Part shown: piece after piece, positions 41,210 to 47,604 of the stretch
Numbering within the stretch: the first letter of the stretch is position 1
Layout: the number at the start of each line of letters is the position of its first letter
Source of the DNA: Chloroflexota bacterium
GTDB lineage: Bacteria; Chloroflexota; Anaerolineae; UBA4142; SHND01
Assembly: GCA_029778615.1 (NCBI GenBank)
Contig: JAKOPZ010000214.1
Coordinates: 1-47,897, forward strand
DNA: 47,897 nucleotides
Direction: 5' to 3'
Notes under the pieces: model-generated
The model's input: the letters and a program-made list of their open reading frames with translations, nothing else
What the model was told of the DNA's origin: nothing
Database searches by the model: none
Position numbers and translations under genes: made by a program

Positions 41210-41282
41210 TGCCGAATGCACAATGCCGAATGCACAATGCATAATGAAAAGTCGTGCATTGTGCATTTTCAATTGTGCATTG
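41208..41282. repeat. heptanucleotide arrays in opposite orientation forming a hairpin at the dnaN stop
   Basis: Six AATGCCG/AATGCAC/AATGCAT-type units (41208-41249) are followed by inverted TGCATTG/TGCATTT units (41255-41282). The first unit shares two bases with the TAA stop. Arms AATGCACAATGCA (41229-41241) and TGCATTGTGCATT (41255-41267) are perfectly complementary over 13 bp, so the transcript folds into a hairpin that may end or protect the dnaN mRNA. Confidence 0.85.
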
Positions 41283-42642: not shown

Positions 42643-45600
42643 CTACTTGCGGCACGTGGGCTGATAATCGCGCAAATTGTATTGCTCAATCTCCTCTGTA
42701 TCCAGATCTCGTGACAAGCGCGCACAAGCCATGTCAATCGCGTTTTGCAAATCAATCGTCCATATCCGGATTGTACCAAAGTCGTTTTGCGTATAAATGC
42801 GCTTGCCGTCGGGATAGAACCCAAGATGATTGAGTCCGTCCTCGTGACCAATGAACTGACGCACTTCCTTGCCCGTTTCAACGTCCCACAACCGCGCCGT
42901 GCGATCATCTCCACCGCCACCACTCAGTATAAATTTTCCGTCCGGCGAAAACGCGACAGGAAAAACAGGACCGACATGCCCGATGAACTGGCGCAGCTCT
43001 TGACCCGTCGCCACATCCCACAAGCGAAGCGTTCCATCCTGACTTGCCGTAACTAAACGTTTTCCATCCGGTGAAAAGTCAACACCTTCGACCAGATTCG
43101 TGTGTCCGACAAATTGACGAACTTCCTTGCCCGTTTCCGTCTCCCAAACGGAAGCAGTGTTACCTTCGTGCGTGTTCGACGCAATATATTTTCCATCCGG
43201 CGAAAACGCGACGCGATATCCATCTCCGGTAGTGCCGATATACTCGCGAATCAACTTGCCCGTTTTCAAGTCCCACAAGTGCATTCCTTCCTGACTGCGC
43301 TCCACGAGGTATTTTCCGTCCGGTGAAATATCGGAACGCCATCCCGCCTTGACACCTTCAAAGCGCGCGACTTCTTTCCCGGTCGCTGTTTCCCACAAGT
43401 GTCCGACATCCTCGACGCGTCTGCCCCAAAAATATTTTCCATCTGGAGTAAATGCCAGCCCGTTGACGCCATTCTTACCGTCTAGCACGAGTGGCTCACG
43501 CAATTTCTTTCCTGTTTTCGCATCGTAAAAACCTATGGCATGATCCAGTCCTACCAACAAGAGCTTGCCGTCGGGCGATAATGCCGCGTCGCCAATGACC
43601 TGACCGCCAATGACAATGGGTTCGGGGTCTGGAAAAAGTTCCCAAATTCCCGCTTGCGAGCGAAGATCAATGCTCGCGAGGGCGAGATACCTGCCGTCAT
43701 TGGAAATATCCGCTGAAAGAATCAAGCCCTTGTATCCGCGAAATTCTTTCAGCGTTTCTCCTGTTTCTACATCCCAAAGCCTTGCCGTGCCATCCTCACT
43801 CGTGGAAACAAAGTGTTTTCCGTCGGGCAAAAATGAAACTGCGCCGGGAGCGCGTGGGTGGCCAACGAATTCGCGAATTACTTTGCCGCTTGGAATCTCA
43901 AACATCAAGATGGATTTCTTATAATAAGTTGCACCAAGTGCGAACCTCCCATCCGGCGAAAACGCAACCCCGTCAATACCTTCTTTCTCGCCAAGCCGCT
44001 GAATCTCCTTGCCGGTTTCGAGGTCCCAAAGAATTACCACCTCGTCCAGCCCCGAACTCAACAGCATTTTCCCATCGGGAGAATATGCCACACGGATCGC
44101 GGACTTGGCATGCCCCTGCAACGTTTGAACAAGCTTGCCGGTAGCAACATCCCAGAGACGTATAGCGCTGTCGTTCTCATCAATAGGATTGCTGCTTGCA
44201 ACCGTTTTGCCATCGGGAGAAAACACAACTTCAGTGCCCGCCAGATTGGGTGCAAAGCGCCGCACCTCATTTCCGGTCTCTGTATCGTACAAGCGAAGGT
44301 CCTCTGTACGAAGACTTGTTACAATGAGTTTTCCATCGGGCGAAAACTTGGCTGCACTCAACCTTACTGTACCGGGGAATTGGCGAATCTCCTTTCCCGT
44401 TTTTGCATCCCACAGACGAATCGTTTTGTCCGAGGAAGCGGTAAGCGCGTACTGGCCATCGGGGGAAAGGTCAATGCTCCACACGCTGTCTGTGTGACCA
44501 CGGAACGAGACGCGGGGATAATCGCGCGCTATTGCACGCAGCAATAGACCATCCGCCGGACCGAAATAACCTTGTTTCAAAACATGTAATGCCAGCAGCG
44601 CAGGCAAATCTGCGAAAACATTTTGGTCTAGCGCGAGATTTCCTTCAGCGACGAGACGTTGTTTGTCGGACAATGCGAGTCGTTCTTGCGCGACATTTTC
44701 ATTTGCAATTGCCGTCGCACGCGCGTATTGTTCTGCTATCGCATTCTCATTCGCGCGATTTCCAAAAAACAGTGCAGCACCCGCGAGTAAAATCGCCAAC
44801 ACAAACGCGCCCGCGAGAAACACCGCGCGTTGGCGCAATTTTCTATTCGCGTTCTGTTCCGTCTCCGCCAATTTTTGTGCGGCAACCAATTCGCGCTGTT
44901 GCTGTTCTTCGCGCTCGCGTGCTTCGCGTTTCTCGTTTTCTTCCGACGCGTCCAAAAACGCGCGTTCGCCCGCGTTCAACACATTCACATTCGTTACCGC
45001 AAATTCTTTCGCCTGCGCCAAACGCGCGCCGCGATACAACGCACTCGGATCGCGTTCTAACAGTTCCCACTCTTGCGCGGCTTCGGTGAGATGACGATGC
45101 AATTTCAAACCGTCGCGATTTTCATTCAACCATTCGCGCAAGCGGGGCCACTCGCGAATCAATGCTTCGTGCGCGACCTCAGCCGTACTTTCATGGGTCG
45201 TAATCAAGCGCGCATCCGCAAGCAGCGTCAATACCTCGCGCACGTTTGCGCGTTCGATGTCTCCCGTCTCCAGTTCTCGAATCTCGGCGCGTCTGCGAGT
45301 GTCTTCGGTACCTTCGCCAAGCTCGGTCAACCTTAAGAAAATGTTGCGCGCGATGTTTTGTTGTTCGGGCGAGAGTTGTTGATATGTAGATTCCGCCGTG
45401 TGAGCAATCGCGCCGCGCACGCCGTCCGATTCCGCATATCCTTTTAATGTCATGCGATGCCCGCTGCGCCGCTTCCACGTTTCAAGCAGCGCGTGCGATA
45501 AAAGCGGCAGCGCACCGGGTTCTCCGCCTACATCACGCAGAATCAAATCTACGAGCCCCGGTTCAAATTCCCAGTTGCCGCGTTTGGCAGGTTCCTCCAT

Positions 45601-47604
45601 TGCGCGCCGCAATTCCTCCACGCTCATCGGTCCGATGTACTCTTGCTGTTTTGCCACCGCGTCGCGCAATTCGGGATATTGCGCGAGGTGCGAATAAAAA
45701 TCCGCGCGCAGCGTAATCACGAGCGTAAGCAATTGCGTGCGTCCTGCACTTGAGTCCGATTGAACTCCCACCGCGTCGAGCAAATTATCAATGAACTGCT
45801 CGCGTTCAAATTCATCGCGGCAGAGCGTAAAGAGTTCTTCAAATTGGTCAACGACTAACAAGTGATGAGCGATGAGGGATGAGGGATGAGTAGTATCATT
45901 CTCACTCATTCGTCGCAACCACAGTTGGAGCGAACGTGGGTCGCGCGCCAAATCATCTAGCAATGTCGCCGTTGCCGTCACCGATTCCGCGTCCCGCGTC
46001 AATGCGACTGCCAGCGCTTCTAACGGATGCGCGGTCGGCGTCATCACAAACACGCGCCATTCGTAGAGACGTTCCGGCGGAACGTCTCTACGAATGGCAG
46101 GAATCAGTCCCGCACGCACCAGCGACGATTTGCCGCTGCCGGACGCGCCAACGACGACGGCGAGAAAACGCTGTGAACGAATCGAGTCCGCCAATTTTTC
46201 GACGAGTTGTTCGCGCCCGAAAAACAAATTCGCGTCTGCTTCGTCAAAAAATTCCAGTCCTTTGAATGGCGGTTCGCCCGGCGCGGGCGGTTCGTTCGCC
46301 GCGTCAAAATCTTTGAGCGGCGGAAACTCGGACGGCAGTCCCTCAATCGTCAGTTGAACGATACGCACGGGATAGCGCAAATCTTTTAGGCGATGTTCGC
46401 CCAAATCTTGAAGCCCGGTGCCGGGCGGCAATTCGTTTTCGACAAGCGCGCGCGTCGTTTCGGATAACAGCACCTGTCCGCCGTGTCCCGCGCTGCCGAT
46501 GCGCGCCGCGCGATGCACGTCAATGCCCACGTACCCCGTGCGCGCCAACATCGGTTCGCCCGTGTGCAAACCCATGCGCACACGCAAACTTTCACCGTGC
46601 TGCCACGGATGCGACGCGAGCGCGCGCTGTGCCTGTGCCGCAAAGCCGACCGCATCTGCCGCGCGAAAGAATGCAAAAAAGAAAGAATCGCCCTGCGTAT
46701 CCACTTCGTGACCGTTGTGTTGTTCGGCGATGGCGCGCAGGAGGTCGCGCTGGTCGGCGAGCAAATTCGCGTACGCGTCGCCCAATTTTTCCACGAGCTG
46801 CGTCGAACCTTCAATGTCGCTGAAAAGGAACGTGATGGTGCCGGACGGTTGAATCAGAATTGATGAGAGAGGCGTGACGAGCGGCTGCGTGACTTGATTG
46901 CCGCGCGAGAGTTCATCAAACAATGCACGCGTTTCGGGCGAAGGGTCAACGCCGAGGTCGTTGCGCAGTGCTTCGACGCAGCGTTCGTACGCGAGCGCGA
47001 GTTTGGCGGAATCGCCCTGCGCGGCGGCAGCTATCATCAATGCGCGATACGCAGGTTCGGGCGTTTGTCCCAGCGCAATCCAGCGGTCTGCCCATTCCTG
47101 CATTTGCTTCCAACGCTTTTCTTGAATCAAGTGCTCAAGCAGCGCCCCGCACTTGGTTTCAAAAATTCCCTGCACGCGGTCGCGTTCGAGCAGCATCCAT
47201 TCAGCATAGAAACCGGGCAAGAGTTCGCCGCGATACAACGAGAGACTGGAGATGAGAGATTCGGGATTGTCGTCGGATTTTTCCAGCGCGGCAACGTCGA
47301 GCCAATAGCCCGCGTCGGGGTTGAACGTGACAGAAAACTCGTCTGCGTTCAAATAATCGGGATTGCCTGCTTGATGCGCGGTGATGGCTTTGCGAATGCG
47401 CCACAATTCTTGCCGCAGATTTTTCCGTGCGATGTCGTCGGAGGTGTCTGGCCAAATCATGCCCGCGAGTTTTTCGCGGCGGTGTTCCGCGCCCGCGTAA
47501 AGGACCAAAAACGCAAAGAGCGATTGTCCCGAACGCGAAGCAATAAGGACGCGCTTGCCCTCTGTGCGAACGTCGAATTGACCGAGCAGCCGAATTTGAA
47601 GCAT
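42643..47604 (-). CDS. giant BTAD / cyclase-like / STAND ATPase / TM / WD40 regulator
   Basis: The protein has 1653 residues. In order: winged helix (1-95), BTAD domain (about 100-235, LSLYRGELLPGFYAEWMLLERDR), class III cyclase-like domain (256-420), nSTAND1-type ATPase (about 445-830; Walker A GASGSGKSS 486-494, Walker B LLVVDQFEEL 582-591), coiled coil (about 885-925), one transmembrane helix (about 927-948), then about fourteen WD40-type repeats (FSPDGK...RLWD.ETGKE). The cyclase domain keeps metal-binding Asp in FSDIEGST but has VDTQGDS and VHRAARI where active enzymes have a purine-binding Lys and Asn, so catalysis is doubtful. The helix implies a membrane-tethered DNA-binding protein with the propeller on the other side or wrapped nearby. 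Residues 503-516 and 572-581 are encoded by repeat DNA. GAGGTG precedes the ATG by six bases. Confidence 0.93.
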   Translation of the reverse strand: MLQIRLLGQFDVRTEGKRVLIASRSGQSLFAFLVLYAGAEHRREKLAGMIWPDTSDDIARKNLRQELWRIRKAITAHQAGNPDYLNADEFSVTFNPDAGYWLDVAALEKSDDNPESLISSLSLYRGELLPGFYAEWMLLERDRVQGIFETKCGALLEHLIQEKRWKQMQEWADRWIALGQTPEPAYRALMIAAAAQGDSAKLALAYERCVEALRNDLGVDPSPETRALFDELSRGNQVTQPLVTPLSSILIQPSGTITFLFSDIEGSTQLVEKLGDAYANLLADQRDLLRAIAEQHNGHEVDTQGDSFFFAFFRAADAVGFAAQAQRALASHPWQHGESLRVRMGLHTGEPMLARTGYVGIDVHRAARIGSAGHGGQVLLSETTRALVENELPPGTGLQDLGEHRLKDLRYPVRIVQLTIEGLPSEFPPLKDFDAANEPPAPGEPPFKGLEFFDEADANLFFGREQLVEKLADSIRSQRFLAVVVGASGSGKSSLVRAGLIPAIRRDVPPERLYEWRVFVMTPTAHPLEALAVALTRDAESVTATATLLDDLARDPRSLQLWLRRMSENDTTHPSSLIAHHLLVVDQFEELFTLCRDEFEREQFIDNLLDAVGVQSDSSAGRTQLLTLVITLRADFYSHLAQYPELRDAVAKQQEYIGPMSVEELRRAMEEPAKRGNWEFEPGLVDLILRDVGGEPGALPLLSHALLETWKRRSGHRMTLKGYAESDGVRGAIAHTAESTYQQLSPEQQNIARNIFLRLTELGEGTEDTRRRAEIRELETGDIERANVREVLTLLADARLITTHESTAEVAHEALIREWPRLREWLNENRDGLKLHRHLTEAAQEWELLERDPSALYRGARLAQAKEFAVTNVNVLNAGERAFLDASEENEKREAREREEQQQRELVAAQKLAETEQNANRKLRQRAVFLAGAFVLAILLAGAALFFGNRANENAIAEQYARATAIANENVAQERLALSDKQRLVAEGNLALDQNVFADLPALLALHVLKQGYFGPADGLLLRAIARDYPRVSFRGHTDSVWSIDLSPDGQYALTASSDKTIRLWDAKTGKEIRQFPGTVRLSAAKFSPDGKLIVTSLRTEDLRLYDTETGNEVRRFAPNLAGTEVVFSPDGKTVASSNPIDENDSAIRLWDVATGKLVQTLQGHAKSAIRVAYSPDGKMLLSSGLDEVVILWDLETGKEIQRLGEKEGIDGVAFSPDGRFALGATYYKKSILMFEIPSGKVIREFVGHPRAPGAVSFLPDGKHFVSTSEDGTARLWDVETGETLKEFRGYKGLILSADISNDGRYLALASIDLRSQAGIWELFPDPEPIVIGGQVIGDAALSPDGKLLLVGLDHAIGFYDAKTGKKLREPLVLDGKNGVNGLAFTPDGKYFWGRRVEDVGHLWETATGKEVARFEGVKAGWRSDISPDGKYLVERSQEGMHLWDLKTGKLIREYIGTTGDGYRVAFSPDGKYIASNTHEGNTASVWETETGKEVRQFVGHTNLVEGVDFSPDGKRLVTASQDGTLRLWDVATGQELRQFIGHVGPVFPVAFSPDGKFILSGGGGDDRTARLWDVETGKEVRQFIGHEDGLNHLGFYPDGKRIYTQNDFGTIRIWTIDLQNAIDMACARLSRDLDTEEIEQYNLRDYQPTCRK
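45862..45889. repeat. heptanucleotide tandem array inside a coding sequence (4 units)
   Basis: GTGATGA, GCGATGA, GGGATGA, GGGATGA run in exact 7-base register. On the coding (minus) strand they encode THPSSLIAHH (residues 572-581), immediately before Walker B of the STAND ATPase. The frame is preserved. Confidence 0.85.
46057..46097. repeat. 41-bp perfect palindrome inside a coding sequence
   Basis: The 19-bp arms CCATTCGTAGAGACGTTCC (46057-46075) and GGAACGTCTCTACGAATGG (46079-46097) are exactly complementary around GGC. It is translated as AIRRDVPPERLYEW (residues 503-516), just after Walker A of the STAND ATPase. The core CGTAGAGACGTT recalls dispersed palindromes of cyanobacterial and Chloroflexota genomes (from memory). 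Confidence 0.92.

Follow-up and report, generated by a model that had tools for sequence, protein, structure and literature searches.

A perfect palindrome within the gene for a 1653-residue STAND protein of a Chloroflexota bacterium is very probably one copy of a dispersed GTAG-tagged REP, made up of GTAG and a 21-nt hairpin (AGACGTTYCRNYGRAACGTCT) and often accompanied by a mirrored CTAC, that has repeatedly landed in genes of this genus. The palindrome lies in the window, the 47,897-nt stretch of DNA that was analysed, whose relevant features are the following.

42643-47604, minus strand: host gene, encoding a 1653-aa protein (open reading frame and Pfam)
46054-46098, minus strand: codons by which the palindrome is read as residues 503-517, AIRRDVPPERLYEWR
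46056-46098, no strand: perfect palindrome with 21-nt arms and a 1-nt centre (inverted-repeat listing, folding)
46056-46062, no strand: outer arm GCCATTC, which pairs with GAATGGC at 46092-46098
46063-46066, plus strand: GTAG tetranucleotide (REP tag) 5' of the hairpin, with its mirror CTAC at 46088-46091
46067-46087, no strand: 21-nt REP hairpin core AGACGTTCCGGCGGAACGTCT, common to about 40 other sites in the genome

The preliminary description of this palindrome had given it 41 bp, with 19-bp arms and a 3-nt loop. The palindrome is real and its arms are exact, but it is longer than had been stated: the maximal perfect inverted repeat spans 43 bp, two arms of 21 nt around a single central nucleotide, and is the longest perfect entry among the inverted repeats of the window. 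Folding of this segment as single-stranded DNA yielded -26 kcal/mol (z = -7.8 versus shuffles), and perfectly complementary 21-nt arms separated by at most 3 nt are expected by chance about 5e-6 times per 6 Mb (6e6 x 4 / 4^21). The pattern GTAGAGACGTN{0,14}ACGTCTCTAC has a single match in the window, where 0 are expected, and four in the genome; the reversed pattern, used as control, has 0. The window copy is symmetric, its GTAG being mirrored by CTAC, and the outer arms that extend it fall in the flanking codons Ala503-Ile504-Arg505 and Glu515-Trp516-Arg517, outside the element. A tandem/inverted AATGCACAATGC motif located between genes at 41215-41281 of the window has no relation to the palindrome.

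Pfam places an nSTAND1 domain at residues 446-853 of the host protein and WD40 repeats from residue ~1030 onward; by eye, the N-terminus contains a BTAD-like and a cyclase-homology-like region. Translation of the open reading frame bears out the earlier claim that the palindrome is read in frame near Walker A: GCC ATT CGT AGA GAC GTT CCG CCG GAA CGT CTC TAC GAA TGG C(GC) encodes AIRRDVPPERLYEW(R), residues 503-517, which start about 12 residues beyond the Walker A lysine. The segment had also been said to be variable in related STAND proteins, and the loops of homologues do differ in both length and sequence, which indicates that the loop tolerates insertions. Thus, at the position of the palindrome an 80%-identical paralogue has the peptide SLKNESRKLETGDW (loop PSLKNESRKLETGDW, built from GAGACTGGAGACTGGAGA micro-repeats), a 75%-identical orthologue has ALKDVEGNKGTEGTW (loop PALKDVEGNKGTEGTW) and another, shorter homologue has PALRRDTPPW. 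None of these three loops is palindromic beyond 7-nt arms, and none of these homologues without palindromic DNA has the peptide of the window copy. The window loop is as long as that of its nearest, 80%-identical paralogue, whose loop bears another repeat; two close paralogues therefore carry two different repeats in the same STAND loop. As judged from the alignments, the window copy may either have replaced its loop or have lengthened it, both of which fit because every close orthologue known has a disturbed loop. A single-sequence AlphaFold prediction reached a pLDDT of 39, too low for use, and a PDB sequence search with the nSTAND1 segment returned no relative. In the 80%-identical paralogue of the window gene (L094, ~2220-2290) the micro-repeat GGAGACTGGAGACT, with peptide DWRLETGD, fills the STAND loop; the same repeat and peptide are also translated in frame in the L128, L058 and L063 proteins of this genome, and related WRLEVGG repeats are present in the congener G001 (Chloroflexi bacterium NC_groundwater_1493_Pr4_B-0.1um_56_6).

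The palindrome is not confined to this gene. Allowing at most two mismatches, the core is present about 40 times in the genome (6.0 Mb, 372 contigs) and the reversed control not once, and exact symmetric copies are present in 17 of 60 relatives. In the sister species G001, 52 copies were analysed, and another sister species has about 8. When 38 copies were aligned in one orientation, GTAG directly preceded the hairpin in 33; CTAC directly followed it in only four, the window copy included, whose GTAG is thus paired. Four copies in the genome are perfect GTAG...CTAC palindromes, and the unit, 21 nt for the hairpin, amounts to 25-29 nt with tags. In relatives the inner stems vary yet stay paired (TTCC/GGAA, TTTC/GAAA, TGTC/GACA, TTAC/GTAA, TTAT/ATAA, TTGC/GCAA). 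Among 20 distinct variants from relatives, retrieved with a pattern that left the covarying stem bases free, 97.5% of cells were paired, four pairs had changed on both sides, and double-change cells numbered 23, compared to 6.2 after shuffling. The element qualifies as a GTAG-REP on its tag, size, copy number and covariation, and was set beside the 24 published GTAG families by architecture and not by consensus. Among the matches listed, the same 25-mer is abundant in cyanobacteria (Tolypothrix, Hassallia, Iningainema, Plectonema) and also occurs in Chloroflexi, Dehalococcoidia, Nitrospirae and Rubrobacter bins. An Rfam search of the region matched no family, and a literature search for the letters GTAGAGACGT returned unrelated papers only. 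Many REP copies come after short tandem repeats GGTGAACGGGTGA (L051, L052, L053, L061, L130, L133), and in L130 a 36-bp unit with the REP inside it is repeated three times.

At least 15 copies in this genome lie in frame in open reading frames, which are backed by homology or domains with the exception of L134, which has no Pfam hit. The hosts are the window STAND gene, a second nSTAND1 gene, a class A penicillin-binding protein, an alpha-2-macroglobulin (A2M)-like protein, a glycosyltransferase, an AMP-binding ligase, an FGE-sulfatase-like protein, an alpha-amylase, a methyltransferase, a HEAT protein, TrpE, PurL, a BTAD regulator and a Cas6-like protein. The Pfam domains that hold or adjoin the elements are nSTAND1, the A2M bait region, transpeptidase, FGE-sulfatase, methyltransferase, HEAT, BTAD, Cas6-like, amylase, chorismate-binding, AIRS and AMP-binding. 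Fifteen intragenic copies are read as xRDV[PS]xxRL (9), RRxxxTS (3) or [EK]TFxxNVS (3). By direct reading, the core as carried here is free of stops in all six frames; with GTAG, one of the sense frames acquires a TAG; this is the frame of the A2M-like copy, in which GGAG replaces GTAG. Eight intragenic copies are antisense, two sense and five symmetric or undecided; the orientation bias was too weak and was dropped. In G001, REP-derived peptides are tandemly amplified inside open reading frames (L412, L427, L437; DVPTRDVPTGDVPTGDVPTERLY, RDVPAERLYAERLYAERL).

The location habit differs greatly between host groups. According to mechanical counts, which include some spurious open reading frames, 58% of the copies in this genome are in open reading frames of 250 aa or longer (77% for random positions), as are 35 of 52 copies (67%) in G001 (random, 79%), whereas only 6% of copies in low-GC, mostly cyanobacterial loci are in long ones (random, 61%). 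The extragenic predominance that is usual for GTAG-tagged REPs is absent in this genus, where ~60% of copies are in long open reading frames. Such predominance describes how these REPs usually behave and does not define them by sequence; PMC3733652 counts intragenic copies as members.

Comparison with orthologues that lack the palindrome supports, for other copies, the proposal that the element inserts in frame into genes: net gains ranged from 3 to 42 nt and were always multiples of three. The penicillin-binding protein has AFGQRDVPPERLYTAATV, a gain of 21 nt that is also present in G001, where congeners without the insert have AFSQNFTPATV or AFARDYTPATV. The A2M-like gene likewise gained 21 nt. 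The amylase gene gained 12 nt in this genome and 15 nt in G001; in the G001 hairpin a T-A stem pair is replaced by a compensated C-G. The FGE gene gained 42 nt, and G001 has another short repeat there. Net gains of only 3 nt were found in the methyltransferase and in PurL, which has ARKRDVPTERLYKDD in place of APKNKHPRAPQKND, the form of most relatives. TrpE contains TCRDVSAERLYG between GYFGFP and NMD (+18 nt), where five to seven residues are found in G003 (the congener uncultured Chloroflexi bacterium SRR6670122_bin.22), G004 and G005, and where aligned solved TrpE structures have almost nothing at the loop and are without the 11 residues. TrpE of G001 has, at the same position, another GTAG hairpin whose stem differs but is still complementary (GTAGAGACGGGGCGGTGCCCCGTCTATCC), and in the same loop TrpE of G009 (L177) carries in frame an unrelated palindrome of ~100 bp (TGTCATTGCGAGGAGCG...CGCTCGCAATGACA). 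At the level of aligned sequences we regard it as established that orthologues either lack the copies or have other palindromes at the same place, with net changes in multiples of three. Because these changes differ from 25-29 nt, simple insertion alone is insufficient, and since most are smaller than the element, native bases would have been lost during or after insertion. A fixed 21-nt unit inserted beside a pre-existing GTAG was rejected; it fits the penicillin-binding protein and the A2M-like gene and fails for PurL, the methyltransferase, TrpE and the amylase. A clean empty site with a target duplication was not found among the orthologues compared.

In some copies the palindrome reaches into its surroundings. 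Outer complementarity of at least 6 bases beyond GTAG..CTAC was observed in 6 of 67 distinct symmetric copies from all loci, compared to an expectation of 0.016; for some of the others, which are intergenic, a terminator may have played a part. In the window copy the Leu that precedes the loop in nearly all homologues is Ile, and its codon ATT completes the arm. We infer from this sequence that the outer arms GCCATTC/GAATGGC were probably made complementary by hairpin-templated correction. It is also possible that the element inserted into a pre-existing palindrome, as has been reported for other REPs (PMC3733652); since Leu is otherwise conserved there and Ile is atypical, we favour the later templated change.

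How would such an element have spread? A dispersed family with covarying arms, with copies in open frame in conserved genes and with species-specific presence is, as far as sequence comparison goes, established. The element would have spread as a single-stranded hairpin, probably by the action in trans of a Y1/HUH (RAYT-like) transposase, target bases being lost at or after insertion. Out-of-frame events would be purged by selection. An element arriving in frame in a tolerant loop would be translated with its host, yielding a short charged peptide (typically RDVPPERLY), and would be retained; in-frame survival would be easy because of the 21-nt length (seven codons) and the stop-free core. The peptide would be a tolerated spacer, with no new function. 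No REP copy was found near the Y1_Tnp genes of this genome or the 16 Y1 loci of relatives, and a 20-seed profile, which may miss distant transposases, detected no Y1 transposase gene near the copies in the loci of the named genomes. A linked transposase was therefore rejected, and the loci examined do not have the arrangement of a REPtron, in which a Y1/HUH transposase gene is flanked by or near the repeat. A different palindromic family (GGGCGAAT..., GACCTGCGTCGAA) forms long inverted repeats flanking a Y1 transposase gene in L143 (~815-1505; G000 C94), an arrangement resembling a TIR-associated tyrosine transposase.

An explanation that differs from the preferred one in the mechanism of spread alone is that loops were overwritten rather than lengthened, in a transposase-independent way, through template switching at a REP hairpin or repair of the gene-conversion type there. 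The net gain of just 3 nt for both PurL and the methyltransferase despite an element of 25-29 nt, the extension of palindromes into native flanks far beyond chance, the equal loop lengths of the window gene and its 80%-identical paralogue, and the lack of a linked transposase in the loci examined all point to overwriting. The penicillin-binding protein and A2M-like copies, however, fit a plain gain of 21 nt, and a loop that was first lengthened by insertion and then shortened would look the same. We consider overwriting a serious possibility, though not the probable course of events. Somewhat more doubtful, and offered tentatively, is the broader idea that this REP family has shifted from an intergenic to a protein-coding life, in which loops of proteins are overwritten or lengthened in frame by single-stranded hairpins, tandem amplification within proteins multiplies the seven-codon hairpin and hairpin-templated repair extends the palindrome into native codons, making the family a continuing source of new loops.

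The three remaining explanations concern what the palindrome is for, or whether it is an element at all. It might be a REP of the extragenic type with a regulatory role in DNA or RNA (a terminator, an mRNA stabiliser, a gyrase or protein site) whose in-frame location is incidental. The very stable hairpin, the conservation of GTAG in 33 of 38 copies, the covarying arms and the 94% of copies outside long open reading frames in cyanobacterial loci are consistent with such a role; the location of ~60% of copies in long open reading frames in this genus, in frame in conserved enzymes whose frame is unbroken, and the lack of an Rfam match argue against it, and we consider it unlikely. Even less probable, in our view, is that the RDVPPERLY-type peptide is a useful loop or interaction motif that has been recruited repeatedly. 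Nine of the 15 intragenic copies use the same frame (five expected if uniform), the peptide is tandemly amplified in proteins of the sister species (e.g. GDVPTRDVPTGDVPTGDVPTERLY) and three palindromes of different kinds occupy the same TrpE loop. The frame bias is weak, however (p of about 0.03 by our own arithmetic), the frames RRSxGTS and ETFxRNVS occur as well, and other loop-filling repeats do equally well in paralogues. A coincidence of coding sequence or convergent codon choice has next to no chance of being correct, given the rarity of a 43-bp perfect palindrome, and was rejected on the grounds that the same core is present at dozens of sites and the reversed control at none.

The class of GTAG-REPs and its occasional entry into genes are already known. 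New are the predominantly in-frame habit, the presence of different palindromes at the same TrpE loop across species and the extension of the palindrome into native codons. The literature searched yielded no family that is located mostly in open reading frames in one Chloroflexota genus and whose element is extragenic at cyanobacterial loci. With one sequence family behaving in these two ways, and with sister species that carry or lack individual copies in a genus known from groundwater and other metagenomes, it becomes testable how tiny palindromes enter essential genes, what sets their landing place and whether new protein loops arise. The results also carry a warning: short peptides such as RDVPPERLY that are common to unrelated proteins of these genomes are repeat-derived and do not reflect homology.

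Association with short tandem repeats is a trait of the very small mobile repeats of cyanobacteria. Compared by description, the present family resembles those repeats, credited to Elhai et al. 2008 (cited in PMC3733652), in being very small and dispersed. REPs are the textbook extragenic repeats, and in-frame palindromes are a hallmark of Rickettsia. GTAG-tagged REPs are asymmetric, with an unpaired GTAG at one end and a palindrome of 20-40 nt (PMC3733652, PMC2817692), and form a super-family with dozens of dispersed copies and compensatory arm variation (Di Nocera et al. 2013, PMC3733652). They have been reported in Chloroflexi and Cyanobacteria and are mostly intergenic in general, although occasional intragenic REPs and REPs nested in larger palindromes are on record (PMC3733652). 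The present family shares with them the size of the palindrome, the GTAG tag, the dispersed high copy number and the compensating arms, and differs in that more than half of its copies here are in frame in long open reading frames. GTAG is part of the recognition by the TnpA-REP transposase, strictly so in E. coli and less so elsewhere (PMC8266576); unlike RAYT-linked REPs (PMC2817692, PMC8266576), the present family has, among the loci examined, no copy with a Y1 transposase gene close by. The preliminary description had likened the palindrome to a Rickettsia-like mobile element in a protein loop. The in-frame habit was upheld, as was the placement of the host, a Chloroflexota bacterium, in a different phylum; the class was not, the element being a GTAG-tagged REP. 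Rickettsia palindromic elements have a CGTC end tag (PMC3733652). What the two have in common is that palindromic repeats are found in frame in unrelated, apparently functional proteins, as judged here from open frames and conserved domains; with GTAG in place of CGTC, and with a host in the Chloroflexota, the likeness drawn here is one of habit.
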